A DNA stretch of 64,000 bases from Lachnospiraceae bacterium (GTDB lineage Bacteria > Bacillota > Clostridia > Lachnospirales > Lachnospiraceae). The notes under the pieces were generated by a model. That model saw only the letters and a program-made list of their open reading frames with translations. It had not been told where the DNA came from and did no database searches. Where the stretch lies: contig JAILDL010000063.1 of assembly GCA_024689465.1 (NCBI GenBank), positions 1 through 64,000 of the forward strand, given 5' to 3'. The translations under genes and the position numbers were made by a program. Shown piece by piece: positions 1 through 45,800 of this stretch (within the stretch, counting starts at the first letter, position 1; each line of letters starts with the position of its first letter).

Positions 1-207
1 AAAAACGAAATGGATATCAGTCCCTCTGATTATCTGGCGACCGTGCGCATGGACAAGGCCAAGGAACTCCTGCGGACAACGGACCTGAAGATCCGGGATA
101 TCAGCCTGGAAGTGGGCTACGAAGACGATCACGTCTTCACCAGAAGATTTAAGAAGTACACCGGCAAGACGCCCGGTCAGTACAGGAGCGAACATTATGT
201 ATACTAA
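1..207 (+). CDS. AraC-family transcriptional regulator, C-terminal fragment
   Basis: This is the 3' end of a gene that begins before the window; the frame is open from base 1. The visible 68 residues form the second half of an AraC/XylS DNA-binding domain: a helix rich in MDKAKELL, the turn DISLEVGYED and the signature FTRRFKKYTGKTPGQYR. Such proteins activate sugar catabolic genes. The stop lies inside the following GH43 gene (11-nt overlap), so regulator and enzyme are probably co-transcribed and translationally coupled. The effector domain is outside the window, so ligand and any histidine-kinase partner cannot be judged. Confidence 0.9.
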   Translation, partial: KNEMDISPSDYLATVRMDKAKELLRTTDLKIRDISLEVGYEDDHVFTRRFKKYTGKTPGQYRSEHYVY

Positions 208-1666
208 TCCGGTCATCACCGGTTTTGCGGCAGATCCCAGTATCTGCAAGGGAGCAGACGGGTACTATCTGGTTACTTCCACATTTACATACTTTCCCGG
301 TATTTCGGTCTTTTTCAGTCAGGACCTGCTATCCTGGAAGCAGGTGGGAAATGCGATCCCCACTCCCGAGGATATCGACTTTGCGGGAGAGGATGTAAAC
401 GGTGGGATCTGGGCACCTACTATCCGCTATTATGAAGGGGAATACTATGTCTGCGCAGCAGTGGAAAAGAAAGGCAATCTGATCACTCATACAAAGGATC
501 CGGCCGGAACATGGGCAAAGCCGGTGTGGGTGGAGATCGGAGGAATCGATCCATCGCTGTTTTTTGAAAACGGAAAAGCCTATTTTTGCACCAATGACTG
601 GAGCGATGGAATGCCGGGAATCCGGCTGGGAGTGGTAGATCCGAAAACGGGAGAAACCCTGGAGCATTTTTCCTGTATTTATCGCGGAAACGGAGGCGGC
701 TGGCTGGAAGCGCCTCACATTTATCATATCGGAGAGTATTATTACCTGCTGGCGGCAGAAGGCGGAACCTACAGCGGACATATGGAGATCGCGGCCAGAT
801 CCCGAAACCTGTATGGACCCTATGAAAGCTGCCCGCTTAATCCCATTCTGACCAATCGGGCAGACACATCCAAAGCCATCAGCTGCACGGGACACGGCGA
901 TCTGATACAGGCCGAAAGCGGGCAGTATTATATGGTGCACTTAGGTTGCAGACCGGGGGCCCTTGCTATCTCTTCTCTGGGAAGGGAAACCTTTCTCTCA
1001 CCGATAAAATGGGAGAATGGCTGGCCGGTGGTTCCGGGAGGAATGGCAACTTTGCAAAACGATGATCCCTGCTTATCGGATGCGGATCAGAAAAAGACGG
1101 TACTTTTGGACGATTTTACCCAGGATGCCTGGCCGGTTTTCTGGAAATTTCGGGGAAATAGTTGCAACAATATGAAACGGGGAAACGGCGCTCTAACGAT
1201 TTCCTTATCAAAAAGGGAAACGAAAGCCTTCGCCTATGTCCGGCAACCGGATCTGTTCTTTACCTGCAGAGTTGTTTTGGACACCGGAAAACTGTCATTG
1301 ACGGAAGGCGCTTTTATCGGACTGACCCTGTATCTTTCGGATTCCTTTTATGTTCTGTGGGGGATCCGTGTAAAGGAGGGGCAGTGTCGTCTGGTGCTGG
1401 AGCAGCAGGCGGATGATCTGAAGATCTGCCATGAGGATGTGATGTGGGATGCGCAAGGCCCCGTTCGCCTGCGGATCATCGGTGAAGACAGGAAATACCG
1501 TTTTGGGGCAGAGCGCGCAGCTTTGCCATTGCAGGAGAAAACCCTTTCCGCCCGGTTCTTATCGCCCTCCGTTATGGACAGAGGGTTTACGGGAACCATG
1601 GTGGGCGTGGGGATCCTCGGAGAAGAATATGACAGCGGCAGCTTTTGTTGCATGGAGATTGGATAA
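197..1666 (+). CDS. GH43 beta-xylosidase / alpha-L-arabinofuranosidase
   Basis: A 489-residue glycoside hydrolase family 43 enzyme, expected to remove xylose or arabinose from the non-reducing end of xylan-derived oligosaccharides. The five-bladed propeller starts at once (NPVITGFAADPSI). Asp13 fits the general base, Asp118 in GGIDPSLFF the pKa-modulating Asp, and Glu171 in GGWLEAPHIY the general acid. Residues from about 320 onward form a beta-sandwich of the type found C-terminal in XynB-like GH43 proteins. There is no signal peptide, so it should act in the cytosol. An AGGAG at 184-188 lies 8 nt before the ATG, inside the end of the AraC gene. Xylosidase versus arabinofuranosidase cannot be settled from sequence alone. 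Confidence 0.9.
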   Translation: MYTNPVITGFAADPSICKGADGYYLVTSTFTYFPGISVFFSQDLLSWKQVGNAIPTPEDIDFAGEDVNGGIWAPTIRYYEGEYYVCAAVEKKGNLITHTKDPAGTWAKPVWVEIGGIDPSLFFENGKAYFCTNDWSDGMPGIRLGVVDPKTGETLEHFSCIYRGNGGGWLEAPHIYHIGEYYYLLAAEGGTYSGHMEIAARSRNLYGPYESCPLNPILTNRADTSKAISCTGHGDLIQAESGQYYMVHLGCRPGALAISSLGRETFLSPIKWENGWPVVPGGMATLQNDDPCLSDADQKKTVLLDDFTQDAWPVFWKFRGNSCNNMKRGNGALTISLSKRETKAFAYVRQPDLFFTCRVVLDTGKLSLTEGAFIGLTLYLSDSFYVLWGIRVKEGQCRLVLEQQADDLKICHEDVMWDAQGPVRLRIIGEDRKYRFGAERAALPLQEKTLSARFLSPSVMDRGFTGTMVGVGILGEEYDSGSFCCMEIG

Positions 1667-1669
1667 AAA

Positions 1670-3529
1670 ATGAATCTGAAAACAGATAAGGAATATACAC
1701 CCATCCCCTTCTGGTTTTGGAATGATGAGCTGACGGAAGAGGAGATCTTTCGCCAGATGAAGGAGATGAAGGACAAGGGGGTGGACGGATTTGTGATCCA
1801 TCCCAGAAAAGGCCTGCCGGATTCCATCGGATATCTGTCGGATGCTTATTTTCACTTTGTAAAATATGCGGTAAGGAAAGCCAAAGAGCTGGACATGATC
1901 GTGGTCTTATACGATGAAGCCATGTATCCCTCCGGGTCCTGTCACGGAGAAGTGGTACGATCCGACCCTTCCTTTGCTTCCAAAGGACTTCTGCGGATGA
2001 CGGAAAAGCCTGCCCGGTCTGAAGGAACGATCCTTGCGGAAGCTTTGGAAAACGGAGAACAGATCTATTACGTTTTAGCGGAAAGCGGTGGCACCATCCG
2101 GGGAGTGCATCCCGGCGAAGACGATGGAGAAGCGGGGGCACCGAGAAGCGCGGATCTGCTGAATCCTGCAGCGGTCCGTAAATTTATCGAACTGACCCAC
2201 GAACGGTATTATCGGGAGTTATCTCCCTATTTCGGAGATACGATCCGCGGCTTTTTTACGGATGAGCCCAATATCCTGGGACGAAATGCCCGCAGGGATA
2301 TGATCCCCTGGACGAAGGGACTGCTGGAGGAGTTTTTGCAAGCAGGCGGGACCGTAGCACAGCTGCATTTTCTTTTTGAAGAGACCGGAAAACGCTCGGA
2401 GCAGGGGGCGTTTTCACAGACAAGGCAGATCTACCAAAGGGTGTTGCATAAACGCCTGGGAGAAAGCTATTACAAACAGCTGTCGGCGTGGTGTTTCGCC
2501 CATCATATCGATCTGACCGGGCATCCGGAAAAAAGCACGGATATTGGATACCTGCAGTATTTTCAGGCACCCTGTCAGGATATCGTATGGCGGTTTGTGG
2601 AGCCGGAGGATGGGCATGCCATCGAAGGGGAGCATTCCACTATGGGAAAGTGTTCCTCCGACAGTGCCAGACACCGGGGGAAGAGACGAAACGGCAACGA
2701 GTGCTTTGGCTGTTGCGGGCAGCGGCAGGATCCCAAACGCTTTACCGAAGAAGACATGTGCTGGTACTTAAACTGGCTGTTTGTAAGAGGGGTCAACCTG
2801 GTGTATCCCCATGCCTTTTATTACTCGATCCGGGAGGATCGGGGAGATGAGAGACCGCCGGAAGTGGGACTGCACAATCCATTCTGGCCGAATTACCGGA
2901 AAATGAGTGCTTTTATCAAGCGGATGTGTTATCTGAATACAGACAGTGTAAACCATGCACCGGTAGCGGTTCTGTGCGGGGAAGAGACGCTTTCCTGGAA
3001 GATCGCAAAACCGCTCTATGCCCATCAGATCGAGTTTAACTATCTGGAGGCGGATCTGCTTTCTGCCTGCCGGGTAGAAAACGGACAGCTGCGGATCGCA
3101 TCCCAGTCCTATGGGGTGCTGCTGGCAGAGCCGGAGGAATATGCTGGGGTGGATGCCTCGGCGCAGGCGGTGCTTAAGATGTTTGAAAACAGTGGCGGAA
3201 CGATCCGGATCACAGACGGAGAGAATCTGAATCTGTCTGCGTTGGATGTAAGGCGGGAACTGCATTTTTCCGGAGAAACCGATGCATTGCGGTGCAGCCA
3301 TGTGACCAAAGAGGGGAAGGACTATCTGATCGTGACCAATGAAGGGCTCTCTCCCATAACGGTTTTCTGGGAGAATGGCAGCTATCGGGTAACGGAGATT
3401 TATGATCCTTATGAGGATCAGTCGATCCTTCCGGATGCGTTTCAAAAAAAGGACCGTGAGGAAAGCGGCATCTTGTCGCTGCCACCCTTCTCTCTTAAGA
3501 TCTTTGGATTGGAAAGATCGGATCTATAA
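1670..3529 (+). CDS. GH106-related putative glycoside hydrolase, short form
   Basis: A 619-residue protein starting 3 nt after the GH43 stop. The N-terminal half resembles the catalytic barrel of GH106-like (alpha-L-rhamnosidase-related) proteins: PFWFWNDELTEEEI, GVDGFVIHPRKG, VLYDEAMYPSGSCHG and FTDEPNI (Glu199), followed by a TGHPE segment and GNECFG. The C-terminal part looks like a small beta-sandwich. It shares these motifs with the 1017-residue protein at 42853-45906 but is about 400 residues shorter. It has no signal peptide. Its place between GH43 and GH115 suggests a role on xylan side chains, but substrate and even catalytic activity are inference. It could equally belong to an undescribed family of the same fold. 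Confidence 0.65.
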   Translation: MNLKTDKEYTPIPFWFWNDELTEEEIFRQMKEMKDKGVDGFVIHPRKGLPDSIGYLSDAYFHFVKYAVRKAKELDMIVVLYDEAMYPSGSCHGEVVRSDPSFASKGLLRMTEKPARSEGTILAEALENGEQIYYVLAESGGTIRGVHPGEDDGEAGAPRSADLLNPAAVRKFIELTHERYYRELSPYFGDTIRGFFTDEPNILGRNARRDMIPWTKGLLEEFLQAGGTVAQLHFLFEETGKRSEQGAFSQTRQIYQRVLHKRLGESYYKQLSAWCFAHHIDLTGHPEKSTDIGYLQYFQAPCQDIVWRFVEPEDGHAIEGEHSTMGKCSSDSARHRGKRRNGNECFGCCGQRQDPKRFTEEDMCWYLNWLFVRGVNLVYPHAFYYSIREDRGDERPPEVGLHNPFWPNYRKMSAFIKRMCYLNTDSVNHAPVAVLCGEETLSWKIAKPLYAHQIEFNYLEADLLSACRVENGQLRIASQSYGVLLAEPEEYAGVDASAQAVLKMFENSGGTIRITDGENLNLSALDVRRELHFSGETDALRCSHVTKEGKDYLIVTNEGLSPITVFWENGSYRVTEIYDPYEDQSILPDAFQKKDREESGILSLPPFSLKIFGLERSDL

Positions 3530-3551
3530 AAAGTTGTAAAACGGAGAAAAT

Positions 3552-5861
3552 ATGAGCTTACAGATCAACAGAAATACTACGATACAGGCAGAGAACATTC
3601 CGGTCCCGGTGGGGAAAGCGGTAGAAGCATTTTACCGGGATCTTCGAAATACCTGTACGGATACCGAACAACCGGGATTGACCATCTGCCTGGCCCCCTT
3701 AGCAAACCCTGCGAAAGGATCTGCTAAGGAGGATACCGCTGCGGAAAAAAACGGCAGGTTCCGGATGGAAGCAGAACAGTTTATCCTGCAGCGGACAGGG
3801 GATAAGCTCCTTCTGACCGCAGGGGGAGACCTTGGCTTTATCTACGGCATCTACCACATCAGCCGCACCTTTCTGGGCGTGCAGGATTTCTGGTTCTGGA
3901 ACGAGCAGATCCTCGTAAAGAAGGCAGGATACCATGTGCCGGAGGACTATCATTACGAGTCAGTCCCTGCCAAAGTGCGTTTTCGCGGCTGGTTTGTCAA
4001 CGATGAGGTGCTCTTTGATGAGTGGAAACCCAGGAAGGAGAATATTCAGCCCGGATCAGACGGGAAGCAGATCATGGATTACGGGAAGGTTATCGATGAC
4101 AGCTTCCCCTGGAAGATGGCTTTTGAAGCCCTGCTGCGCTGCGGCGGCAACATGGCTATTCCCGGAACGGATTTTAATGCCCATATCTATAAGAAACTGG
4201 CGCGTGATCACGGCCTTTGGATCACCCATCATCATGCGGAGCCTTTAGGAGCCCGGATGTTTGCCAGGGCATATCCGGATCTGGACGCCAGCTTTGATAA
4301 GCACGGAGACCTGTTCCGCGGGCTCTGGCAGGAAGCCATTGAGGAGCAGAAGGACTGCAAGGTGATATGGAATCTGGGCTTTCGCGGACAGGGGGATCGG
4401 CCATTCTGGGCGGATGATCCAACCTATGAGACACCGGCAGCTCGCGGAAAGCTGATGAGTGACCTGATCCTGGAGCAGTATAACCTGGTAAAGGCTTCGG
4501 ATCCCCAGGCGGTGTGCTGCACCAATCTCTACGGAGAAACCATGGAGCTGTATAAGGATGGGTTTCTTTCCTTCCCGGAGGACGTGATCAAGATCTGGGC
4601 GGATAACGGCTTCGGCAAGATGGTTTCCAGAAGACAGAACAATCACAATCCCAGGGTGGTGGCGCTTCCGAATCAGGAAGATACAAGTGCTCACGGGATC
4701 TATTATCATGCATCCTTTTATGATCTGCAGGCAGCAGGGCAGATGACCATGCTGCCCAACTCTCCGGAATTTGTGGCAAAAGAACTGCAGGACGTTTATG
4801 CCCACGGCATAGAGGATTTCTGGCTGATCAACTGTTCCAATGTGAAGCCCCATACCTACTATCTGGACCTGATCGCACAGATGTGGCAGGGAGGAACCGG
4901 TGCGCGCCTGCCCGGAGCATGCACCAATCAGCCGGCTGCGGACAGGACAGTTGAAACGGTGGATGCGATCGCAAAGCGGCATCCGGAAAACTATGTCAGA
5001 ACCTGCTACGGCAATCTGCAGCCGGAGTTATTACAGGAAATCCGGGATCTTTATGCCCTCTGGCCTTCCTATGCCATCCAGTATGGCCCTCATGAAGACG
5101 ATCATGCGGGGGAACAGTTCCCCAATCATGGCGCGCGGATCCTGGCCAGCGGCTTTTTACGGAATTTCTCCCTGGACGAGCCTGCGAAGGCAGTTGCCCT
5201 TCCGGAACTGGACTGGGTCTGCAAGGCAGACACCCTGCTGGAACAGGTGCAGTGGTATGAGGAGAAGTTTGAGCAGGGAGAAAAAGGGTACCGGGAGTAT
5301 CTTGCAAAGTGCCTGGAGGGGAAAGAAAAACTGGAGGCAGCAGGGGGTTCTGATGAAACCGGGTGCACTGCAGCAACCATTTTGGACCACAACCTGATGG
5401 TGCAGGTCCGGTATCTCCATGCCAGCTATCTGGGAGCCCTTCATATCTGCAGAGCTCTCAGGACCTGTCTGGATGCCGGACAGACCGGCAGCAGATTTAT
5501 GGATGTCCTGGAGGAAGGCGCCAAAGGAAAACAGGTGGACTACCTGACCGCTTTTTACGAAGCGGGTCTTGCTGCGAAGGCGTTTTTTGACGGGTATGAT
5601 GCCATGCGGGATACGGAAGAGGGCATCTGGAAGCATTTCTACCGGAATGACTGTGAGGCGGATATCCGCCAGTCCGGCTATGTGGCAAAAAGCCTCATGG
5701 GATATCTGCGCGTTCTGGGAGACGGCCCGCATTTTTATCAGTGGCAGCGGAAGTTTCAGAAGGAATCCGGTGGGGAAAAGGTGCATCTGATCCTGCGGAT
5801 AAAGCCCCATCTGACCGACGAAGAACTATGGCATTTGATGGAAGAAACCATGGAAAAATAA
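3552..5861 (+). CDS. GH115 xylan alpha-1,2-glucuronidase
   Basis: A 769-residue protein matching family GH115, which removes (4-O-methyl)glucuronic acid from internal or terminal xylose units of xylan. Recognisable stretches are the N-terminal alpha/beta domain with DLGFIYGIYHISR, RGWFVNDE, the large barrel with NLGFRGQGD, and the block DNGFGKMVSRR then GIYYHASFYD and FWLINCSNVKPH. It is somewhat shorter than typical GH115 enzymes, so the last beta-rich domain may be reduced or missing. No signal peptide is visible, so it is probably cytosolic. It follows the GH106-related gene by 22 nt, in the same probable operon. Glucuronate released here would feed uxuB-uxuA downstream. Confidence 0.85.
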   Translation: MSLQINRNTTIQAENIPVPVGKAVEAFYRDLRNTCTDTEQPGLTICLAPLANPAKGSAKEDTAAEKNGRFRMEAEQFILQRTGDKLLLTAGGDLGFIYGIYHISRTFLGVQDFWFWNEQILVKKAGYHVPEDYHYESVPAKVRFRGWFVNDEVLFDEWKPRKENIQPGSDGKQIMDYGKVIDDSFPWKMAFEALLRCGGNMAIPGTDFNAHIYKKLARDHGLWITHHHAEPLGARMFARAYPDLDASFDKHGDLFRGLWQEAIEEQKDCKVIWNLGFRGQGDRPFWADDPTYETPAARGKLMSDLILEQYNLVKASDPQAVCCTNLYGETMELYKDGFLSFPEDVIKIWADNGFGKMVSRRQNNHNPRVVALPNQEDTSAHGIYYHASFYDLQAAGQMTMLPNSPEFVAKELQDVYAHGIEDFWLINCSNVKPHTYYLDLIAQMWQGGTGARLPGACTNQPAADRTVETVDAIAKRHPENYVRTCYGNLQPELLQEIRDLYALWPSYAIQYGPHEDDHAGEQFPNHGARILASGFLRNFSLDEPAKAVALPELDWVCKADTLLEQVQWYEEKFEQGEKGYREYLAKCLEGKEKLEAAGGSDETGCTAATILDHNLMVQVRYLHASYLGALHICRALRTCLDAGQTGSRFMDVLEEGAKGKQVDYLTAFYEAGLAAKAFFDGYDAMRDTEEGIWKHFYRNDCEADIRQSGYVAKSLMGYLRVLGDGPHFYQWQRKFQKESGGEKVHLILRIKPHLTDEELWHLMEETMEK

Positions 5862-5920
5862 AGGTTTTCTGTGCATTGTTCTGATTGACTCTCTATGTCG
5901 TTCGTGCAAGAATAGAGAAC

Positions 5921-6568
5921 ATGATGCTTGAGAAAATTGTAAAACGAAACAAACCTGTAACAAGAATTATCCTGGTGATCATCGGGGTCTGTGCCATGGG
6001 CGTCGGCCTGTATTTTCTGGATCATATCAAATTCGGAACAGACTCCTGGAGCACCTTTAACCTGGCCCTTTCCCGAAAGTTCGGGATGAGCTACGGCAAT
6101 ACTCTTCTCATCGCCAACCTGATCGCTCTGATCTTTGTCCTTTTATTCGGCAGACGGGAGATCGGGATCGGAACCATCGCCAACATGGTGCTGGTAGGCT
6201 ATGCCAAGGATTTCAGCGAGTGGCTGTTTGGAAAGTTCATTCCGGACTCCTTTTTTGAACCCTTTTTAAACCGGTGCCTTATCCTGATCCCGGCCATGGC
6301 CTGGTTTATCGTAGCGGTGGCCATCTATGTGGCAGTGGATCTGGGGACATCCCCTTTTGATGCGGTGCCCAATATCCTTGCCAGAAGAATTGCGAAGATC
6401 CCCTTTATGTACCTGCGGATCACCTACGATGCACTGTGGGCAGTCCTTGGCTTTTTCCTGGGAGGAACGGTAGGTGCCGTAACGGTTTTGATCGCACTGT
6501 TTTTGGGCCCCTGCATTACCTGGGTTAAGCACAAGCTGGAAAAGACCTTCGGCTTTATCAATGATTAG
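5921..6568 (+). CDS. YczE/YitT-type integral membrane protein
   Basis: A 215-residue membrane protein resembling the YczE/YyaS/YitT group, whose function is not established. About five hydrophobic segments are visible, starting with IILVIIGVCAMGVGLYFLDH and ending with a glycine-rich helix near AVLGFFLGGTVGAVTVLIAL; a DLGTSPFDAVPN-type motif, typical of the group, sits near residue 140. The frame stays open upstream to a TTG at 5885, but the ATG pair at 5921/5924 gives the expected short charged N-terminus. It lies 59 nt after the GH115 gene and converges with the AraC gene, overlapping its stop by 11 nt. A transport role in sugar or uronate use is possible only by context. Confidence 0.75.
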   Translation: MMLEKIVKRNKPVTRIILVIIGVCAMGVGLYFLDHIKFGTDSWSTFNLALSRKFGMSYGNTLLIANLIALIFVLLFGRREIGIGTIANMVLVGYAKDFSEWLFGKFIPDSFFEPFLNRCLILIPAMAWFIVAVAIYVAVDLGTSPFDAVPNILARRIAKIPFMYLRITYDALWAVLGFFLGGTVGAVTVLIALFLGPCITWVKHKLEKTFGFIND

Positions 6569-7448
6569 CCCCTTTAGCGGCATGGGTGCTGTATTCGGAA
6601 GGAGACAGGCCGTATTCTTTTTTGAAAGCCCGGTAAAAGGTGGAATAATCCTTAAAACCGTATAACAGACAGACCTTAGTGGCTTCTCCCCCTGCCAGCA
6701 TGGCGCTGCAGCAGGCGGAAAGCCGCTTTTTTAATATATACTGATGGACGGACAGCCCCGTATTATCCTGAAACAAGTGGGAAATATGGAACTTGCTGAC
6801 GTAGAAGGCGGATGCGAGACGATCCAGGGACAGGTCCTCTTCCAGATGATCGTCGATGTAGGCGGTCACGCCGTCATAGAGGGACAGATTTTCCCGGGGC
6901 GTTTTGGGGTGCTTTTGCTCATAGATGCTGCGGTTCAGCTGCAGAACCAGCAGATCCACCTGCAAACGGATCTCCTCCTGTCTGCCGAACCGTTCGGAAT
7001 GGATCTCATCCAGTAACCGGAACAGCATGTTTTGCAAGGTACTGAAGGTAAGGATATCAAAGTGATAGATAAATTCCCTGCTGGTGATGGTATGCTGGGG
7101 CGCATAGGCATAGTCCGGGGACTTTTGCAGCAGCAGGTCGCAGTATTCGGAGCTGATCCAGAAAACGAACCGCCTATAGGGTACGTTTTCATCCCGGATC
7201 ACGGCATGGTGGGGAATGCCCGGGGGAATGATGATCACATCCCCGGGAGAGAGGGTGTACTTTACCTGTCGGATGTACATATCCACTTCCCCTTCCAGAA
7301 AGAAGTAGAATTCATAGTAATCATGGTCATGGTCGCCCACGGCCTTAAAGTGCAGGTCGCTGTAGTAGAAGACTTCGAAGTCATCGGACAGCATGTACTG
7401 TCTGGTATTAAACTGGGATCGAAGATTTTTGCGCAATGGTTTTTCCAT
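6558..7448 (-). CDS. AraC-family regulator with N-terminal cupin domain
   Basis: A 296-residue one-component regulator. Residues about 25-110 form a cupin-like sugar-sensing domain (DHDHDYYEFYFFLEGEVDM, SPGDVIIIPPGIPHH), and residues about 190-290 are the double helix-turn-helix AraC domain (LDRLASAFYVSKFHISHLFQ, then GFKDYSTFYRAFKKEYGLSPSEY). It is transcribed away from uxuA across a 224-nt intergenic region with two inverted repeats, which makes it the natural candidate regulator of uxuA-uxuB and perhaps the upstream xylan genes. Its 3' end overlaps the YczE-type gene by 11 nt. Targets are inferred from position only. Confidence 0.9.
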   Translation of the reverse strand: MEKPLRKNLRSQFNTRQYMLSDDFEVFYYSDLHFKAVGDHDHDYYEFYFFLEGEVDMYIRQVKYTLSPGDVIIIPPGIPHHAVIRDENVPYRRFVFWISSEYCDLLLQKSPDYAYAPQHTITSREFIYHFDILTFSTLQNMLFRLLDEIHSERFGRQEEIRLQVDLLVLQLNRSIYEQKHPKTPRENLSLYDGVTAYIDDHLEEDLSLDRLASAFYVSKFHISHLFQDNTGLSVHQYILKKRLSACCSAMLAGGEATKVCLLYGFKDYSTFYRAFKKEYGLSPSEYSTHAAKGANH

Positions 7449-7535
7449 CCTTTCCGGTATCTGCCAGCGGCAGGTTTTTCAAAATACTCCCTGCTCCCAA
7501 CGGATCACTTTCAACATAACACCACACCACAATTT

Positions 7536-7550
7536 TTGCAATGTGTGCAA
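7536..7550. promoter_or_regulatory. Inverted repeat TTGCA-N5-TGCAA, candidate operator
   Basis: TTGCAATGTGTGCAA is a perfect 5+5 bp inverted repeat in the divergent araC-uxuA region, 36 nt upstream of a TATAAT. Its placement suits a regulator of uxuA, but the protein that binds is unknown. Confidence 0.4.
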
Positions 7551-7553
7551 CAA

Positions 7554-7591
7554 GTCTGCCAATCGGAATCGGCAGGCTTATTTTTTATAAT
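7554..7591 (+). promoter_or_regulatory. Palindrome and -10 element upstream of uxuA
   Basis: GTCTGCC and GGCAGGC (7554-7577) can pair around a 10-base spacer and form an imperfect palindrome. They are followed by a T-rich run and a perfect TATAAT at 7586-7591. No good -35 is found 16-18 nt upstream, because the palindrome occupies that place. This fits an activator-dependent promoter for uxuA-uxuB. The same stem plus T-run could instead be a short terminator or attenuator. Confidence 0.45.
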
Positions 7592-7672
7592 GATTTCAGG
7601 ATCCAAGATCCCCCTGCCTGTACAGGGCAGGAATCCAAATAAACACACCACCCACAGAAAGGGCAGAAAACT

Positions 7673-8746
7673 ATGGAAATGACAATGCGCTGGTTCGGTA
7701 CCGGATTTGATACCGTAACCCTGAAACAGATCCGGCAGGTGCCGGGGGTAACCGGAGTGATCACCACTTTGTATGATACACAGCCCGGTGAAGTATGGAG
7801 CAGAGAGAAGATCCGTGCTCTGAAGGAAGAAGTGGAGGCAGCCGGCCTGCATATCTCCGGTATTGAGAGTGTAAACATTCACGATGCCATCAAGATCGGT
7901 TCGCCCGACCGTGATCAGTACATTGCAAATTATATTGAGACTCTGGAAAACCTGGGTCTGGAAGATATCCACATGGTATGCTACAACTTCATGCCCGTAT
8001 TTGACTGGACCAGAACCGAGCTGGCCAGAAAGCGTCCCGACGGTTCCACGGTCCTGGCTTACACCCAGGCGGCAGTGGATGCCCTGGATCCGGAGAAGAT
8101 GTTTGATTCCATCGCCGGCGATGCCAACGGTGCCATCCTTCCCGGTTGGGAGCCGGAGCGTATGGCACATGTAAAGGAACTCTTTGAGATGTACAAGGAT
8201 GTAGATGATGAGAAGCTGTTTGCAAACCTTGTTTACTTCCTGGAAAAGATCATGCCGGTGTGCAACAAGTATGACATCAAGATGGCCATCCATCCCGATG
8301 ATCCTGCATGGAGTGTATTCGGTCTGCCCCGTATCATCATCAACAAGGCAAACCTGCTTAAGATGATGAAGGCGGTGGACGATGTACACAACGGCATCAC
8401 CTTCTGTTCCGGTTCTTACGGTACCAACCTGGAAAATGATCTGCCGGATATGATCCGTTCCTTAAAGGGCCGCATCCATTTTGCACACGTACGGAACCTG
8501 AAGTTCAACTCTCCCGATGATTTCGAAGAGTCTGCACATCTTTCTTCGGACGGAAGCTTTGATATGTACGAGATCATGAAGGCTCTGTATGAGATCGGCT
8601 TTGACGGCCCCATCCGTCCCGACCACGGCCGTATGATCTGGGATGAAGTGGCAATGCCCGGTTACGGCCTGTATGACCGTGCTCTGGGAGCCACCTACTT
8701 AAACGGTCTTTGGGAAGCCATTGACAAGAATGCAAAGAGAGGATAA
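7673..8746 (+). CDS. uxuA: Mannonate dehydratase UxuA
   Basis: A 357-residue protein that dehydrates D-mannonate to 2-keto-3-deoxygluconate. It matches UxuA along its length: MRWFGTGFDTVTLKQIRQVPGV at the start, then GIESVNIHDAIK, CYNFMPVFDWTRTEL, MAIHPDDP, and FAHVRN with DHGRMIWDE near the end, which supply the metal-binding His, Cys and Asp residues of this TIM-barrel family. It lies 9 nt before uxuB and is transcribed with it. Together with the alpha-glucuronidases in this window it gives an outlet for glucuronate stripped from xylan. The isomerase UxaC needed before UxuB is not present here. Confidence 0.97.
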   Translation: MEMTMRWFGTGFDTVTLKQIRQVPGVTGVITTLYDTQPGEVWSREKIRALKEEVEAAGLHISGIESVNIHDAIKIGSPDRDQYIANYIETLENLGLEDIHMVCYNFMPVFDWTRTELARKRPDGSTVLAYTQAAVDALDPEKMFDSIAGDANGAILPGWEPERMAHVKELFEMYKDVDDEKLFANLVYFLEKIMPVCNKYDIKMAIHPDDPAWSVFGLPRIIINKANLLKMMKAVDDVHNGITFCSGSYGTNLENDLPDMIRSLKGRIHFAHVRNLKFNSPDDFEESAHLSSDGSFDMYEIMKALYEIGFDGPIRPDHGRMIWDEVAMPGYGLYDRALGATYLNGLWEAIDKNAKRG

Positions 8747-8755
8747 GGACCGATC

Positions 8756-10378
8756 ATGGAACTGACAAATAAAGGACTTGAAAATAAAGAGACCTGGCAA
8801 AGCGCAGGGTATACACTGCCTTCCTTTGACCGGGAGGAAATGATCCGTAAAACAAAGGAAAACCCCACCTGGATCCATTTCGGTGCCGGCAACATTTTCC
8901 GTGCCTTTCAGGCAGCAGCTTCCCAGAAGCTGTTAAATGAGGGCGTTTGCGATACCGGTATCATCGTGGCAGAGGGCTTTGATTATGAGATCATCGAAAA
9001 GATGTATCGTCCCCACGATAACCTTTCCGTACTGGTTACCTTAAAGGCAGACGGAAATGTGGAAAAGACGGTGGTTTCCAGCATTGCGGAAAGTTGCATC
9101 CTGGATTCCGAAAACGATGCAGAGTACGTGCGGATGAAGGAGATCTTTGCAAAGCCTTCCCTGCAGCTGGCAACCTTTACCATTACCGAAAAAGGCTACA
9201 GCCTGGTAAACGGCAAGGGAGAACAGCTCCCTGCTGTTTCTTCTGACTTTGCGGCAGGTCCCGAAAAACCTGCCAGCTACATCGGCAAGGTAGCATCCCT
9301 GTTATATGCCCGCTTTAAGGCAGGAGAGCTTCCCATTGCCATGGTCAGCACCGATAACTGCTCCCATAACGGAGAGAAGCTGTTTGCGGCAGTTCATGCT
9401 TTTGCTAAGAAGTGGACCGAAAACGGCCTTGCCGATGCAGGGTTCCTTTCCTATATCGAAAATCCTGAAAAGGTATCTTTCCCCTGGAGCATGATCGACA
9501 AGATCACCCCCAGACCGGATGCTTCCGTGGAAGCCATCCTGCGTAAGGACGGCCTGGCAGGGCTGGATCCTGTGATCACGTCCAAGAACACCTATGTAGC
9601 ACCTTTCGTCAACGCAGAAGAAAGCGAATACCTGGTGATCGAAGATCTCTTCCCCAACGGAAGACCTGCTCTGGAAAAGGCAGGCATGATCTTTACCGAC
9701 CGGGAAACCGTGAACAAAGTAGAACGGATGAAGGTATGCACCTGCTTGAATCCTCTTCACACCGCCCTGGCGGTATACGGATGCCTGCTTGGTTTTACCC
9801 GTATCTCCGATGAGATGAAGGATGCGGACTTAAAGAAGCTGGTAGAGATCATCGGCTACCGGGAGGGCCTTCCCGTTGTGACCGATCCCGGCGTGTTAAA
9901 TCCCCGGGAGTTTATCGATACCGTTGTGCAGGTACGTATCCCCAATCCCTTTATGCCGGATACGCCCCAGCGTATTGCAACCGATACTTCCCAAAAGCTC
10001 CCCATCCGCTTTGGCGAGACCATCAAGGCCTATATGGCTTCGGAGCAGTTGGATGTACATAGCCTCCGCCTCATTCCCCTTGTATTTGCAGGCTGGATCC
10101 GCTATCTGATGGCAGTCGATGATGAAGGAAATGTATTTGAACCCAGTTCTGATCCCCTCCTAACGACGGTTCAGCCCTATGTGGCTTCCTTCAAACTGGG
10201 AGAAGCAGTCAGTGCAGAGCAGGCAATGACCGCCCTCCGTGGGCTCCTGGAAAACGACACCATCTTTGGAGTGAACCTGGTAAAGGCAGGCCTTGCCGAT
10301 CTGGTAGTGGAGTACTTTATCCAGATGGTAAGCGCTCCCGGACAGGTCCGGAAAACACTTCAAAAGTACGTGAAGTAA
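8756..10378 (+). CDS. uxuB: Fructuronate reductase (mannitol dehydrogenase family) UxuB
   Basis: A 540-residue long-chain mannitol dehydrogenase family member. Near residue 40 it shows the nucleotide-binding stretch IHFGAGNIFRAFQ, then VSTDNCSHNGEKL, a SFPWSMIDKITPRP motif, and LNPLHTALAVYGCLLG in the substrate domain. The family includes fructuronate, tagaturonate and mannitol dehydrogenases. Being 9 nt after uxuA makes NAD-dependent reduction of fructuronate to mannonate by far the likeliest role. The AAGGA before the ATG sits in the uxuA-uxuB gap. A strong terminator follows. Confidence 0.92.
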   Translation: MELTNKGLENKETWQSAGYTLPSFDREEMIRKTKENPTWIHFGAGNIFRAFQAAASQKLLNEGVCDTGIIVAEGFDYEIIEKMYRPHDNLSVLVTLKADGNVEKTVVSSIAESCILDSENDAEYVRMKEIFAKPSLQLATFTITEKGYSLVNGKGEQLPAVSSDFAAGPEKPASYIGKVASLLYARFKAGELPIAMVSTDNCSHNGEKLFAAVHAFAKKWTENGLADAGFLSYIENPEKVSFPWSMIDKITPRPDASVEAILRKDGLAGLDPVITSKNTYVAPFVNAEESEYLVIEDLFPNGRPALEKAGMIFTDRETVNKVERMKVCTCLNPLHTALAVYGCLLGFTRISDEMKDADLKKLVEIIGYREGLPVVTDPGVLNPREFIDTVVQVRIPNPFMPDTPQRIATDTSQKLPIRFGETIKAYMASEQLDVHSLRLIPLVFAGWIRYLMAVDDEGNVFEPSSDPLLTTVQPYVASFKLGEAVSAEQAMTALRGLLENDTIFGVNLVKAGLADLVVEYFIQMVSAPGQVRKTLQKYVK

Positions 10379-10393
10379 ACTTTTTACCAAGGA

Positions 10394-10430
10394 AGAAGCT
10401 GTTTGCCTTTCAGGCAGGCAGCTTCTTTTA
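10394..10430 (+). terminator. Terminator after uxuB
   Basis: AGAAGCTG and CAGCTTCT pair, with an inner GCCT/AGGC stem, and are followed by TTTTA. A second weaker hairpin (AACCGC/GCGGGTT, 10441-10458) with a T-rich tail follows at once and may reinforce it, isolating clpB. Confidence 0.8.
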
Positions 10431-10479
10431 CTCTCCCAATAACCGCATTTTGCGGGTTTATATTTTTTTAAGAATCATT

Positions 10480-10506
10480 TTAGCACTCGACTGTTGACAG
10501 TGCTAA
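10480..10506. promoter_or_regulatory. CIRCE element (HrcA operator) of clpB
   Basis: TTAGCACTC, nine bases, then CAGTGCTAA. This is the CIRCE consensus TTAGCACTC-N9-GAGTGCTAA with a single mismatch in the first base of the right arm. HrcA binds CIRCE to repress chaperone genes. It overlaps the clpB promoter. Confidence 0.93.
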
Positions 10507-10521
10507 CAAGACGAGTAGAAT
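10494..10521 (+). promoter_or_regulatory. SigA-type promoter of clpB
   Basis: TTGACA at 10494-10499 and TAGAAT at 10516-10521, 16 nt apart. The -35 lies inside the CIRCE element, so HrcA binding would exclude RNA polymerase. Confidence 0.85.
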
Positions 10522-10589
10522 GAGGGTAGACAGAAGGAAATACAGGAATACTTCTGAAAAAGAAGCGAACCTTCCGAAAGGAGGACCCT

Positions 10590-13178
10590 ATGAATATTAC
10601 GAAATTTACCCAGAATTCCATAAATGCCGTAAACGGCTGTGAGAAGATCGCCTATGAGTTCGGCCATCAGGCCATCGGAGAGGTGCATTTGCTTTATTCG
10701 CTGCTGTGCCTGGAGGACAGCCTGATCCTGAAACTTATTGAAAAAATGGAGATCGACACGGACCATTTTGTAAACCGTACAAAGGAATATCTGCAGAAGA
10801 TGCCCCGGGTATCCGGCGGTCAGATCTATATGAGCCAGGAATTAAACAAGGCCCTGACCCTGGCAGAGGATGAAGCTGGGCGCATGGGAGACGAATATGT
10901 TTCCGTGGAGCATCTCTTCCTCAGCATGTTAAAGCATCCCGACCGGGATATAAAGGATCTGTTTAAGGAATACGGGATCACCCAGGAGCGGTTTCTGCAG
11001 GCGCTGTCCTCGGTACGGGGCAATCAGCGGGTGACCAGTGATAATCCGGAAGCCACCTACGATACCCTGGAAAAATACGGGGAGGACCTGGTGGAGAAAG
11101 CCCGGAAACAGAAGCTGGATCCGGTCATCGGCAGAGACAGTGAGATCCGGAATGTGATCCGGATCCTGTCCCGAAAGACCAAGAACAATCCGGTGCTCAT
11201 CGGTGAACCCGGTGTCGGTAAGACGGCAGTTGTAGAAGGCCTGGCACAGCGGATCGTTCGAGGAGATGTACCCCAGGGATTAAAGGATAAGAAAGTATTT
11301 GCTCTGGATATGGGAGCACTGGTTGCAGGTGCCAAATACCGGGGTGAATTTGAGGAACGTCTGAAAGCCGTGCTGGAAGATGTGAAAAACAGCGACGGGC
11401 AGATCATTCTCTTTATCGATGAGCTGCATACCATCGTGGGTGCCGGAAAGACTGACGGTGCTTTGGATGCCGGCAATATGCTAAAGCCCATGCTGGCCAG
11501 AGGAGAACTGCACTGCATCGGTGCCACCACGCTGGATGAATACCGGCAGTATATTGAAAAAGATGCGGCCCTGGAAAGAAGATTCCAGCCGGTCATGGTA
11601 GAGGAGCCTACGGTGGAGGATACCATTTCCATTCTCCGTGGTTTAAAGGAGCGGTATGAGGTATACCACGGGGTAAAGATCATGGACAATGCCCTGGTCA
11701 GTGCGGCGGTTTTATCCAACCGCTACATTTCCGATCGTTTTCTGCCGGATAAGGCCATCGACCTGGTGGACGAAGCCTGCGCCCTGATCAAGACGGAACT
11801 GGATTCCATGCCTACCGAGCTGGATGAACTGCGGCGCAAGACCATGCAGATGGAGATCGAAGTGACGGCCCTTAAGAAGGAGGATGATTCCTTAAGCAGA
11901 GAGCGTCTGGAGGATCTGCAGAGAGAACTGGCGGAATTAAAGAGCGAGTATGAGAACCGTAAGGCACAATGGGAAAATGAGAAAGCATCTGTAGACAAAC
12001 TGTCCCGCCTGCGGGAGCAGATCGAAGAGATGAACAATGAGATCCAGATCGCCCAGCAGGAAGGAAATCTGGAAAAAGCGGCGGAACTGTCCTACGGCAA
12101 GCTTCCGGCTCTTAAGAAACAGCTGGAGATGGAAGAAGCGGCGGTCAAGGATAAGGATCTGTCCCTGGTGCATGAACAGGTGACGGAAGAGGAGATCGCC
12201 CGGATCATTTCCAGATGGACCGGTATCCCGGTGGCAAAGCTGAATGAAAGCGAGCGGAACAAAACCCTGCATCTGGACAGCCAGCTGCATAAGCGGGTAG
12301 TGGGCCAGGACGAAGCGGTGGAAAAGGTAACGGAAGCCATCATCCGTTCCAAGGCGGGGATCAAGGATCCCACCAAGCCTATCGGTTCCTTCCTGTTCCT
12401 GGGACCCACCGGCGTAGGTAAGACGGAGCTTGCTAAAACCCTGGCGGCAGCCCTCTTTGATGATGAGAACAATATGGTGCGGATCGATATGAGTGAGTAC
12501 ATGGAGAAGTATTCTGTGTCCCGTCTCATCGGAGCGCCTCCCGGATATGTAGGCTATGAAGAAGGCGGACAGCTGACGGAAGCAGTGCGGAGAAAGCCCT
12601 ACAGCGTTGTGCTGTTTGATGAGATCGAAAAGGCCCATCCCGATGTGTTCAACGTTTTGCTGCAGGTATTGGATGACGGACGGATCACGGATTCCCAGGG
12701 ACGGACCGTGGACTTTAAAAATACCATCCTGATCATGACCAGTAACCTGGGGGCACAGGACCTTCTGGAAGGCATCCGGGAAGACGGAACCATATCCGAA
12801 GAAGCGCAGGAGCGGGTACAGGAGCAGCTTCGTCTCCACTTCCGTCCGGAATTTTTAAACCGGCTGGATGAGATCGTGCTGTTCAAGCCCCTGACCAAAG
12901 AGAACATCAGCGGTATCATCTCCCTGATCGTGGATGACTTAAATAAGCGCCTTGCGGATAAGGAGCTGCGCATCGAGGTAACCCCCGGGGCAATGCAGCA
13001 CATCGCAGAAGAAGCCTATGATCCGATATACGGAGCAAGACCCTTAAAACGGTACATCACCAAGCATGTGGAAACGCTGGCAGCCAGACTGATCCTGGAG
13101 GATCAGGTCCGGGAGCAGGATGTGATCGTGATCGATGTGCAGGGAGAGGAACTGACGGCAACCTGCCGGCATGCGTGA
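10590..13178 (+). CDS. clpB: Disaggregase ClpB
   Basis: An 862-residue Hsp100 ATPase that pulls polypeptides out of aggregates together with DnaK. Domains in order: double Clp-N repeat (about 1-145), first AAA+ module with Walker [14 protein letters not shown] near residue 205, a long coiled-coil middle domain (about 400-520, rich in Glu, Lys and Leu) that distinguishes ClpB from ClpA and ClpC, second AAA+ module with [12 protein letters not shown] near residue 605, and the C-terminal small domain. Length fits ClpB. The start is set by GGAGG just before the ATG. It is a single-gene unit with its own CIRCE-controlled promoter and terminator, so heat-shock control by HrcA is expected. Confidence 0.97.
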
Positions 13179-36859: not shown

Positions 36860-36891
36860 GATCAAATGAATCGCCAATGTAATTGGTTTGG

Positions 36892-36920
36892 AAAGTGTCT
36901 GGCGAGAGCCGGACACTTTT
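36892..36920 (+). terminator. Terminator between the SH3 protein and clpC
   Basis: AAAGTGTCTGGC pairs with GCCGGACACTTT (one G-T) around GAGA and ends in TTTTG. The clpC promoter must then lie within or just before it, but I see no clear -35/-10 pair. Confidence 0.75.
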
Positions 36921-36959
36921 GCTTTCCGGACTTTCTTATACAAAAGGAGTAACCAATCT

Positions 36960-39530
36960 ATGTATGATAACTATTCTGAAACCGGGCAGAATGTATTAAA
37001 GTTTGCCCAGGTGGCAGCCAGAAAACTGGGACAGAATTATATCGGCTCCGAACATCTGCTGCTGGGACTGTTAAATATCCTCAGCGGGATCTCCTATACG
37101 GTCCTGTCGGATAACAACGTGGCGGAAAACCGCATTCGGGATCTGATCAGTGACCTGCTTTCCCCTGAAGGGGACCTGGCCATGGAGGAACAGGAAGGGT
37201 ATTCCCCCAAGGTGGAAGCCATCCTGGAGGAAGCCCAGGCACAGGCCCAACGTTTCCATGCATCTTATGTAGGGTCTGAGCATATCCTCCTGGCGATGAT
37301 CAAGGACGGAGACAATGTGGGGCTTCGGATCCTTGGCACCATCGGCGCCAATGTGGTACGGATCTATCAGGATACCCTGATCGCCATTGGGGAGGACCCC
37401 AATCTGGTGCGCCAGGACCTTTCCCGTAAAAACCGGGCCAGGAGCGCCCAGGGAAATGATACGGCCACGTTGGACAGTTACAGCCGGGATCTGACGAAGC
37501 TTGCCAGAGAAGGAAAGCTGGATCCGGTGGTAGGCCGTGAAACGGAGATCACCCGTGTGATCCAGATCTTAAGCCGCAGGACTAAAAACAATCCCTGCCT
37601 TCTGGGAGAACCGGGCGTTGGCAAAACCGCCATTGTGGAAGGCATTGCCCAACGGATCGCAGAAGGGAACGTGCCCTTTACGGTACAGAACAAGAGAGTA
37701 CTGACGCTCGATCTGTCCGGCATGGTGGCCGGCAGCAAGTACCGGGGCGAATTTGAAGAGCGGATCAAGAAAGTGATCGCAGAAGTCATTGCCGACGGAA
37801 ACATCCTGCTGTTCCTGGATGAACTGCATACCATCATCGGAGCAGGCGGTGCGGAAGGTGCCATCGATGCTTCCAACATCTTAAAGCCCTCTCTTGCCCG
37901 AGGAGAGATCCAGCTGATCGGCGCCACCACCATCAGCGAATACCGCAAATATATAGAGAAGGATGCGGCACTGGAACGTCGTTTCCAGCCCGTTACCGTA
38001 GAGGAGCCTTCCGTTGAGGAAGCATTGGAGATCTTAAAAGGAGTTGCTCCCAAATACGAAGAGTATCATCAGGTGGAGATCCTGCCGGAAGCACTGGAAG
38101 CAGCGGTCCAGCTGTCCCAGCGTTATATCAACGACAGACGACTGCCGGATAAAGCCATTGACCTCATCGATGAAGCGGCATCTGCCGTGCGCCTGAAGGA
38201 TACCACCACCCATAAGAAGAGCCGTGATGTGGAACTGGACGAAGAGCTGGCCCGGCTGGAGGTCCTTTTAGAGGAAGCTGTGGTGGACGGAGAGTATATC
38301 CGCGCTACCGCCGTCCGGAAAGAGATCGAAAAGCTGGAAAAGAAGATCCGGCGCAGCAAAGAACGAAAGAGCTCCGGAAAAGCAAAGCGGCTGCAGGTAA
38401 CGGCAGAAGACATCGCAGGGGTCGTTTCCTCCTGGACAAAGATCCCGCTGCAGAAGCTGACGGAGAAGGAAAGCGAGAAACTGCTGAAACTGGAAAACAT
38501 CCTGCATAAGCGGGTAGTAGGCCAGGAAGAAGCCATTACCGCTGTTTCCAAGGCCATGCGAAGAGGCAGAGTGGGCCTTAAGGATCCGGGCCGCCCCATC
38601 GCCTCCTTCCTGTTCCTCGGGCCTACCGGTGTAGGAAAGACGGAGCTGAGCAAGGCTCTGGCAGAAGCCATGTTCGGATCGGAAAATGCCCTGATCCGTG
38701 TGGATATGTCGGAATATATGGAGGGACACTCAGTGTCCAAGATGATCGGTTCACCGCCCGGATATGTAGGCTTTGAAGAGGGCGGCCAGCTCTCCGAAAA
38801 GGTGCGGAGAAATCCCTATTCCGTCATCCTCTTTGATGAGATCGAAAAGGCACATCCCGATGTGTTCAATGTGCTCCTCCAGGTTCTGGATGACGGACAC
38901 ATCACGGATTCCAAGGGACGAAAGGTATCCTTTAAGAATTCGATTCTCATCATGACCTCCAATGCCGGCGCCAAGCGGATCGTAGAGCCCAAGAACCTGG
39001 GATTTGCCGCTGCGCAGACAGCGGAGCAGACCCATGAGAAGATGAAGGCCGGTGTCATGGAGGAGGTCAATAAGATCTTTAAGCCGGAGTTTATCAACCG
39101 TATTGATGAGATCATGGTCTTCCATCAGCTGACGGATCAGGATATGAAGTCCATCATCGGGCTTCTTACCAAGGATCTGGCCGGCAGATGCAAGAAGCAG
39201 ATGAACATCGATCTTACGGTGACGTCTTCGGTAAAGGAGTATCTGGTAAAGAAATACACCAACCTGAAAATGGGTGCCCGCCCCTTAAAGAGAGCGGTTC
39301 AGAATGTTCTGGAGGATTCCCTGGCAGAAGAGATCCTGAAGGGATCGGTAAAACGGGACAGTAAGGTAACGGCCACCATGAAGGGAGATACCGTGGTATT
39401 TCGCAGTGCCGCTACCGGGACAACAACTGCAACCCAAAAGACCACCGGCAGGAAAACGGCTGCAAAAACGGCAGCAAAGAAAACAAATGCAAAGACGGTA
39501 GCAAAGAAAACAGGTAAAAAGAGTAAGTAA
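36960..39530 (+). CDS. clpC: Clp protease ATPase ClpC with basic C-terminal tail
   Basis: An 856-residue Hsp100 unfoldase that feeds proteins to ClpP. Order: double Clp-N repeat (about 1-145), AAA+ 1 ([13 protein letters not shown] near 216), a short middle part with a UVR-like motif ([25 protein letters not shown]), AAA+ 2 ([12 protein letters not shown] near 554) and the small domain with [10 protein letters not shown]. The short middle and UVR-like motif mark ClpC rather than ClpB. The last 38 residues are unusual: 11 Lys, 1 Arg, no acidic residue, in Lys-Thr-Ala repeats as in histone H1. AAAAGGAG favours the ATG at 36960. ctsR, mcsA and mcsB, normally upstream, are absent; radA follows after 1 nt. 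Confidence 0.95.
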
Positions 39531-42764: not shown

Positions 42765-42844
42765 GTGATATCGGTCAATCTAAGAATACCACATTTCCCT
42801 ATAGCTTGTTATCCTTATTCAGGAGAGAACGGATCCATTGGGAG

Positions 42845-42856
42845 GTCAATATATGC
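42845..42856. repeat. 12-bp direct repeat, copy 2
   Basis: Second exact copy of GTCAATATATGC, 92 bp from the first, overlapping the end of the GGAGGT and the ATG of the GH106-related gene. Binding here would hinder translation initiation or transcription. Confidence 0.4.
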
Positions 42857-45800
42857 TCTATGATTTTGAAAAAGACAATTGGAACGAAGAACTGTTTGCA
42901 GATCCGCCGGCCAGCCTGAGGGGAACACCCTTCTGGGCATGGAACTGCTATATGACAAAGGAAAAGGCCAGAGAGCAGATCCTGCTGATGAAGGAAATGG
43001 GCTTTGGCGGCTTTCACATCCATGTACGGGTGGGCTTTGAAAACCGGTACATGGGCAGAGAATATCTGGAGCTGGTGGAGGACTGCAAAGAGTTTGCAAA
43101 GGAAAACGGGATGCTGTGCTATCTCTACGATGAGGACCGGTATGCTTCCGGGATCGCAGGGGGAGAGGTAACAAAGGATGTCCGTTTTCGCTCCCGTCAT
43201 CTTTTGTTTACCCGTACGTACAGAAAAGAATATGATGTCTCCCATGGGGCTTTCCTGGCGGCACAAAAGAGGGGCGAAAAAGGGAGAGGCTGCCTTCTTG
43301 CCACCTACCGGATCGCAGTGAAAAACGGCCATATGCACTGGTTAAAGGAAGGACAGAGGGACGAAAATGCCATTCTCTGGTATGCCTATGAAGAGGTGGC
43401 AAGCGAACGGCCCTGGTGTAACGACCAGACCTATGTGGATGCCATGAATCCCGAGGCCATCCGCCGCTTTCTGGAGACTACCCATGAAAAATATTACGAA
43501 AAACTGGGAGATGATTTCGGCAGTGTGATCCCCTCCATCTTTACCGACGAACCCAATATCGGAGGGATCCGTCTGGACGGGGAAACGGGAAACTTTGCCT
43601 ATCCCTTTACCGATGGGCTTCCGGAAACGTACAGAGAGACCTACGGGGAGGATCTTTTGGAGGTGCTGCCCTATCTGATCTGGGATCATCCCGATGACCC
43701 TGCCTTCAGTCACCGGATCCGGAGAAACTATTTTGATCTTTGCAGAAAGCTGTTTTACAAAGCCTATCATCAGCAGATCGGGGACTGGTGCAGAGCGCAC
43801 CATATTGCTTTTACCGGACATCTCCTGGCAGAGGACGGTCTCTTTTCCCAGACTTCCTCGGCAGGGGAAGCCATGTACCAGTACAAAGCTTATGACATTC
43901 CCGGCGTGGACAACCTTTGTGACCTGCGGGAATACACCACCTTAAAGCAGGCGCAGAGTATCGCCAGACAGCTGGGAAGGGAAGGGGTCATGAGCGAAGA
44001 GTACGGTGTGACCCAGTGGGATTTTTCCTTCCAGGATTATAAGCTTTCCGGGGACTGGCAGGCAGCCCTGGGGGTGACCTTACGAGTGCCCCATCTGACC
44101 TGGGCGTCCATGAACGGCGAAGCAAAGCGGGATTATCCGGCTTCCATCGGCTGGCAATCCCCTTGGTACCGGCAATTTAAGGCTCTGGAGGATTATTTTG
44201 CCCGTATCGGCTACTGTATGAGCCTGGGAAAACCCAGGGTACGGGTGGCCATTCTCCATCCCCTGGAGGAAGCCTGGAACGTCATAGGAGCAGGGGATGA
44301 GAACACGGCTCTGCGAAAGCGCCTGGAGGAAGCGTTTCATAAGCGAACGGAATGGCTGGTCAAAAGCGGTGTGGATTTTGACTTTATCAGCCAGTCTCTC
44401 TGGGAGGAAATGCCGGAATGGCAAAAAGACGGCTATCTGCAGGTGGGGGAGATGACCTACGAGCTCCTGCTGGTACCCCGGCCCTTGCAGCTGCGGGAAA
44501 CCATCCGGCAAAGACTGGAAGAGCTGAAGAAAAACGGACGTACTCAGGTCGCAGAGGCAGAGCACTTCGACGAGAGCCTGCTGGATGTGCTTTCCCCTTA
44601 CCGGGATGTACAGATCTGTGATGAAACGGGACGACCGTCGTGGGATTATCTGTATCAGCTCCGCAGTCTGGGAGAGTCTGAACTTTTGTTTTTGGCACCG
44701 GCAGAGAAAGCAGAGAAGACCAGAGGGCCTTTTACCTGGGGCCGGAAGGGACTGTTGGAGAGACGCTCTGTGGTGGTGACGATCCGGGGGCATTACCTTG
44801 CGGAAGAACTGGATCCCTTCACCGGAGAGAGGAAAGAAGCATCCTATGAGCAGGTGGGGGATACAACCAAAGTCTTCCTGCAGGCTTCCTGGGCAGACAG
44901 CTTCCTGCTGCTGCTCTCCGGGACAGAAAGGAAGGGAGCACGGGCAGGCAGGGCAGAGGGGGCAGCCTGTACGGCCGTGGGGGAGAACGGCCTGCCTCTG
45001 GAAGAGCCTTTGGCCTATCGTAATACGGAGCCCAACGTGCTTTTGCTGGATCGCATGTCCTATTGTCTGGACGGAGGTCAAGAAAGCGCTGTTACAGAGC
45101 TCCTGCAGGCGGATAACCAGATCCGCGCTGCGCTGGGCTATCCCCTGCGCATGGAAGAAGTGGTGCAGCCCTACATTCGGACGGACGTTAGCCGGGATCA
45201 TCGGCTGGTCCTGAAAGCCGTGATCGATTCGGAAACGGAGGTGGCAAACTGTCTGCTGGCAATGGAAGAGCGGGCCTATTGTACCGTTTTCCTCAACGGA
45301 ACACCGGTGGATAGAATGCCTGTAGGCTACTACGTGGATCCCTGCCTGGAAACCCTGCATCTTCCGCCCATCCGAAAAGGACGAAATCTCCTGGAGATCC
45401 ATATGCAGTACGGTCTTAAGAGCAATCTGGAATGGATGTATCTGCTGGGAGAATTCGGTGTACAGATGGGGGGCAGCAGGACCAAACTTACCGGAAAGCC
45501 GGATCGTCTGACCTGGGGAGATTATACCAGACAGGGGTTCCCCTTCTATACCGGCAACATGGAATATCGGGTGGAGATCCCGGAAGAAGGACGGTTACAG
45601 ATCGGACGCTTTTCCGGATTCGGAGTGACCCTTCGGCAGGAAGAAAAGGAGAAACTGGTGGCCATCCTGCCCTATGAAACAGAGACAAAAAAAGGAGCTG
45701 CCACCATCACGCTACTGGGAAATCGCTATAACGGATTCGGACAGCTCCATATGATCGGAGATGATCTGAATTGGGTGGGACCGGATTCCTGGCGGACCAC

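Follow-up and report, generated by a model that had tools for sequence, protein, structure and literature searches.

The window, a 64,000-nucleotide stretch from a Lachnospiraceae bacterium, carries at positions 1670-3529 of the plus strand an intact open reading frame with an ATG start and a product of 619 aa. The three barrel motifs that the first-pass annotation had assigned to this protein were recovered in the translation, with PFWFWND at residues 13-19, VLYDEAMYPSG at residues 79-89, and FTDEPNI at residues 196-202. Its placement between a GH43 gene and a GH115 gene was likewise confirmed by Pfam. The features considered here are:

1-207, plus strand: AraC-type regulator gene (3′ end), identified from its translation; the window and the contig begin inside it
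197-1666, plus strand: GH43 with a GH43_C2 domain (Pfam 242 bits); closest solved proteins BoGH43A, a beta-xylosidase, and BoGH43B
1670-3529, plus strand: short GH106-type protein, 619 aa (motifs, profiles, predicted fold)
3552-5861, plus strand: divergent short-type GH115, 769 aa (Pfam 188.4 bits)
5885-6568: 227-aa ORF, no Pfam match
6558-7448, minus strand: ORF between the genes on the GH115 side and UxuA
7673-8746, plus strand: UxuA, mannonate dehydratase of glucuronate catabolism (family search)
8756-10378, plus strand: mannitol-dehydrogenase-family protein, probably UxuB fructuronate reductase (family search)
42838-45906, plus strand: long relative of GH106 type with 1022 aa (40.9 bits in Pfam, above the cut-off), about the size of Ram106B

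The stop of the AraC-type gene and the start of GH43 share 11 bases, and the gaps on the two sides of the 619-aa ORF are 3 bases (to GH43) and 22 bases (to GH115). Because of this overlap and these short gaps, the four genes appear to make up a single operon; promoter-like sites in 1-10600 occurred at chance level. Inspection by eye revealed no obvious N-terminal signal peptide in the GH43, 619-aa, and GH115 products. UxuA and the probable UxuB, named so because it is placed beside UxuA, form a separate unit (7673-10378) past the 227-aa ORF and the minus-strand ORF. Elsewhere, the window contains GH67, GH3, and GH51 genes; a plant-polysaccharide cluster at 50633-61491 encodes a SASA-type esterase, a GH2 with a CBM6-like end, a GH3, and a GH67. 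The window also encodes two Clp/ClpB-type AAA+ proteins (10590-13178 and 36888-39530) and, side by side at 47155-50627, two GGDEF proteins of similar length (575 and 582 aa).

When searched alone, the 619-aa protein scored 26.9 bits against Pfam GH106 (PF17132), below the cut-off of 29, which is a detection limit and not a defining trait of GH106. Of the 63 aligned family members, 54 matched the model at E ≤5e-7, the query not among them. A phmmer search of the PDB with the 619-aa sequence alone returned nothing at E ≤1, and the only NCBIfam match was a marginal one of 15.9 bits to the BT4145 rhamnosidase model, whose cut-off is 1300. Homology to the 1022-aa relative in the window was evident from BLAST identities of 29-41% over two barrel stretches, and profile-profile comparison of the short and long families gave a probability of 100% (E 1e-92). 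The two window proteins differ by 403 aa, in line with the shortfall of about 400 residues noted earlier.

We then predicted the structure from the 63-sequence alignment (pLDDT 91.7, pTM 0.93). The model comprises a (beta/alpha)8 barrel, an alpha/beta domain, and a small beta domain, without a C-terminal jelly roll. By VIA, the closest structures were all GH106, with Z scores of 31.4 to 5mqm (572 aligned, 3.5 Å), 31.0 to 6q2f, and 30.8 to 5mwk; Foldseek likewise gave its best E value to GH106 structures (3.6e-25, against 3.0e-14 for the following family), and an earlier model from 11 sequences produced the same ranking. The barrel fold is thus closest to GH106 structures, represented by BT_0986 (5mqm/5mwk) and RHA-P (6q2f), whose chains exceed 1000 aa and are 14-16% identical to the 619-aa protein in structural alignment. 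The first non-GH106 family by VIA was GH42 (Z 22.5). The GH42 beta-galactosidases share the barrel, alpha/beta, and small beta domains (Z 20-22) but are clearly further by fold, and a GH42 identity was rejected given the drop of about 9 Z and the lack of any GH42 sequence among the phmmer or profile matches. These results support the assignment of the 619-aa protein to an uncharacterised GH106-type branch that lost the C-terminal jelly roll. The GH106 relationship proposed at first pass holds, as does the description of the specificity as uncharacterised: no characterised member of the branch was found in the accessible papers or by the family and PDB searches.

The active site was compared with two published patterns. 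In the accessible text of PMC6828813, BT_0986 has the base E593, the acid E461, and the Ca2+ ligands D458, S459, E538, and E561, whereas in four Ram106B rhamnosidases (Thermotoga maritima Tm1074 and its relatives) D-E replaces D458-S459, H replaces E538, and D replaces E561; these enzymes retain E593 and have no E461. We aligned the long family to BT_0986 and RHA-P by profile, and then the short family to the long one. In these alignments, D198-E199 fell on D458-S459, H285 on E538, and E344 on the base E593, with D304 one column away from E561. All five residues were invariant in the 63 short and 17 long sequences. The position of the general acid E461 is taken by N201, and the acid is not kept; the 63 short sequences have D (28), N (15), C (7), or other residues (13) there. 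In the model, D198, H285, and D304 end strands 4, 5, and 6, respectively, and E344 lies within strand 7. Such barrel positions are the usual places of catalytic and metal residues. The five residues may be read as the putative catalytic and metal set of the protein, with E199 as the presumed general acid.

The D-E/H/D/E set therefore gives the 619-aa protein a Ram106B-type site. This likeness was drawn from the published residue pattern, with the long relative in the window as the sequence stand-in. The Ram106B enzymes also resemble the 619-aa protein in having no signal peptide, and the Tm1074 gene lies amid ABC transporter genes, according to the same source (PMC6828813). They differ in size, as they are 116-121 kDa proteins (about 1000 aa), like the long relative in the window, whereas the query has 619 aa and no C-terminal jelly roll. 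BT_0986 and RHA-P have the fold (VIA Z about 31) and the base in common with the 619-aa protein, which does not keep E461 and most Ca2+ ligands. The first-pass annotation had suggested a possible new family, to be favoured if GH106 catalytic residues were lacking. The base is kept in all 63 sequences, and the loss of the BT_0986 acid is shared with Ram106B rhamnosidases that still belong to GH106. The short protein therefore seems to be a new branch within an established enzyme family and not the founder of a new one. The possibility of a pseudogene or inactive paralogue was rejected, as both the reading frame and the catalytic set are intact.

Relatives of the 619-aa protein numbered at least 536 in one scan, and close relatives were found in 10 of 396 other Lachnospiraceae genomes (own genome excluded; branch holders set by the gap between 432 and 154 bits). 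Numbers of this order are well past what chance would produce. Relatives without fused frames are about 605 to 870 aa long, and most have the C-terminal jelly roll that the 619-aa protein does not. Of the 80 loci of the relative scan, 54 entered the 63-row alignment, beside the query itself and 8 of the 10 neighbourhoods of the family relatives; L033 is the same locus as L054, L042 is identical to L092, L039 was omitted, and the remaining omissions were fused, cut, or redundant. L064 and L067, for which an antisense frame over the gene had been picked, were set aside. In a tree built on the first 462 positions of the query, with two long-branched outgroup rows, the query fell inside a 19-sequence clade from gut and rumen (support 100/99), where it grouped with four Butyrivibrio sequences (100/97). 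Because two of the 19 come from Treponema or Treponemataceae MAGs, transfer between phyla is likely. The compact GH106-type gene was noted in rumen Treponema genomes (L145, 5402-7639; L053; L058), one of which carries a short-type GH115 on another contig, an observation that suggests transfer between phyla. The long protein at 42838-45906, probably a Ram106B-like alpha-L-rhamnosidase, sits on a very long branch among its relatives.

When we examined the neighbourhoods of the relatives, GH115 adjacency was found at 4 of the 80 named loci, all from Butyrivibrio (L044-L047), and at one independent locus (L038). The four are exactly the Butyrivibrio sister sequences of the query, and their GH115 proteins are 63-67% identical to that of the window. 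The GH115 gene directly follows in three of them and comes after a 215-aa ORF in L044. This syntenic locus shares GH43 and an AraC-type gene with the window (a 728-aa HTH_18 protein immediately before GH43) and has transporter genes and a beta-galactosidase-like GH2 upstream. At L038, which holds a distant relative, the neighbouring GH115 is of the canonical kind, and GH88 and GH35 are present as well. BLAST detected no GH115 in the remaining named loci, several of which are on short contigs. The adjacency is thus limited to one clade and one further locus, and most relatives have other neighbours, which counts against the interpretation given below.

Among 90 neighbourhoods, which include the duplicate pairs L033/L054 and L042/L092, 14 had a GH88 and 7 a PL26 (of the rhamnogalacturonan lyase type) no further than about 10 kb away, Bacilli included. 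GH88 accounted for 6 of the 115 near ORFs sampled (of 201 eligible); among the 113 far ORFs (of 240 eligible), it was outside the 25 commonest families, yet at least one GH88 gene (L104) was present. The GH88 and PL26 genes near the Bacilli relatives point to rhamnogalacturonan. These searches found neither family near the GH115-adjacent Butyrivibrio loci. The L049 genome has its GH106-type gene on one contig and, on another (L147, 1-2158), a short-type GH115 next to a GH88.

The association with GH115 extended to whole genomes. In counts that ignore phylogeny and use cut-offs set after the scores were known, GH115 (similarity to the window GH115 at E ≤1e-10) was present in 9 of 10 branch-holding family genomes versus 45 of 386 others (p 8e-8), and in 8 of 10 versus 22 of 386 at a stricter cut-off. 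The window-type short GH115 occurred in 4 of 10 holders versus 16 of 386 (p 8e-4). Generalist genomes were considered as the sole cause of the association, which they may yet be: the GH67 control showed no clear link (3/10 versus 34/386, p 0.057), and the 9 of 10 holders compare with 12 of 52 genomes that have only other GH106-type genes (p 1.2e-4). The GH115 link to the 619-aa gene is real, in gene order and in genome content. RhaA was present in 7 of 10 holders versus 103 of 386 others (p 0.006) and was not found in the other three; it occurred in all five genomes of the GH115-linked clade and in two of seven other holders, several of the seven being MAGs. The genomes in which RhaA was not found likewise count against the interpretation given below. 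UxaC was present in 12 of 12 genomes.

We next considered the partner enzymes, which had been described as xylan enzymes. Both are indeed present, but their best solved matches weaken a xylan role. For GH43, these were BoGH43A, an alpha-L-arabinofuranosidase (8e-90), a beta-xylosidase (1e-81), and BoGH43B (1e-79). The window GH115 best matched BtGH115A (PDB 5by3), and a profile of nine short GH115 proteins gave it a slight lead (131 bits) over xylan enzymes (116, 110, and 108). In the accessible text of PMC9063842 and PMC13059095, BtGH115A is the one GH115 reported as active on arabinogalactan and inactive on xylan, and the former doubts its linkage. With BtGH115A barely ahead of the xylan enzymes, the substrate of the short GH115 is not readable from its nearest relative, and an arabinogalactan assignment from GH115 alone is weakened. 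Being nearly equidistant from both, the short GH115 is itself uncharacterised. The short-type proteins (about 670-770 aa), found in 21 of 397 family genomes, are a divergent, uncharacterised GH115 branch, and the xylan setting of the 619-aa gene is weaker than it first seemed.

On the computed evidence, namely the fold, the sequence homology, the invariant catalytic set, the operon shared with GH115, the GH115 genome link, and the presence of RhaA and UxaC, the 619-aa protein is probably a cytosolic, metal-dependent exo-alpha-L-rhamnosidase of an uncharacterised compact GH106-type branch with a Ram106B-type active site. The released sugar is quite likely rhamnose; of the pNP sugars tested on the four Ram106B enzymes, pNP-alpha-L-rhamnoside alone was cleaved (PMC6828813). 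That the rhamnose sits on a uronic acid is close to an even matter, leaning slightly against. That this acid, in the query clade, is the glucuronic acid of an arabinogalactan-type side chain and not of xylan or pectin is possible but on the doubtful side; the side chains of gum arabic are known to be capped by rhamnose in an alpha-1,4 linkage to glucuronic acid (PMC8377490). A side chain capped by a sugar, as suggested earlier, is still plausible, with ordinary L-rhamnose on uronic acid as the likeliest candidate in place of a rare sugar.

Since the gene adjoins GH115, the enzyme probably serves the intracellular rhamnose uncapping of acidic plant-sugar fragments. Acidic oligosaccharides would be taken into the cell, where the 619-aa enzyme would cut off the terminal alpha-L-rhamnose capping a uronic acid; GH115 would next release the exposed glucuronic acid, and GH43 would release arabinose or xylose. 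Glucuronate would then enter the route of UxaC, UxuB, and UxuA, and rhamnose that of RhaA. For comparison, the accessible text on the cytosolic proteome of B. proteoclasticus lists GH67 and GH78 and does not contain the terms GH106 and GH115 (PMC5217386).

Three other interpretations were weighed against this uncapping of a glucuronic acid side chain. The enzyme might instead be a rhamnogalacturonan rhamnohydrolase that takes the non-reducing rhamnose off GalA of RG-I oligosaccharides, its GH115 neighbourhood being local re-use or coincidence. We regard this as a minority possibility that deserves attention, as a table note in PMC6828813 credits the GH106 member BT_4145 with this activity, and as GH88 and PL26 recur near the relatives. 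Neither was detected near the GH115-adjacent Butyrivibrio loci by these searches, with GH88 nevertheless present at the GH115-adjacent L038, and UxuA and the probable UxuB lie near the gene. UxuA and UxuB serve glucuronate, not galacturonate.

A xylan substrate, with rhamnose taken from a side chain of glucuronoxylan or out of the rhamnose-bearing reducing-end sequence of xylan, is unlikely. GH43 and GH115 adjoin the gene, GH67, GH3, and GH51 lie elsewhere in the window, and the host genome also holds a canonical GH115; against this, GH67, the marker of glucuronoxylan use, had no clear link to the branch, and neither neighbour is clearly a xylan enzyme by best solved match. It is equally improbable that the enzyme has abandoned rhamnose for another sugar. 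RhaA went undetected in several holders, the jelly roll was lost, and a branch-specific stretch contains invariant R144 and D152, with further invariant arginines at R205, R308, and R395. However, the complete Ram106B-type catalytic set is retained, and all five genomes of the window clade have RhaA.

The GH115 pairing is specific, and the chemistry involved is probably already known. A bolder proposal, in our judgement rather unlikely, is that the compact GH106-type protein and the short GH115 are a dedicated pair for a rhamnose-capped (4-O-methyl)glucuronic acid side chain. In that case, Rha-(1,4)-GlcA would have its first GH106-type enzyme and GH115 would gain a subtype of new specificity, the pair being spread among Butyrivibrio and rumen Treponema. 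If this were true and the chain were xylan, a rhamnosylated glucuronoxylan would be revealed. Gum arabic is an arabinogalactan protein whose side chains are often rhamnose-capped, and few uncapping enzymes are known, GH145 and PL27 being those named in the accessible text of PMC8377490; a 2014 review called it unknown whether a characterised GH106 cuts Rha-(1,4)-GlcA (PMC4052742, accessible text). A small soluble GH106-type enzyme would make a handy tool and would help settle the role of divergent GH115 genes in rumen bacteria. The searches also indicate that Pfam GH106 misses some probable relatives.
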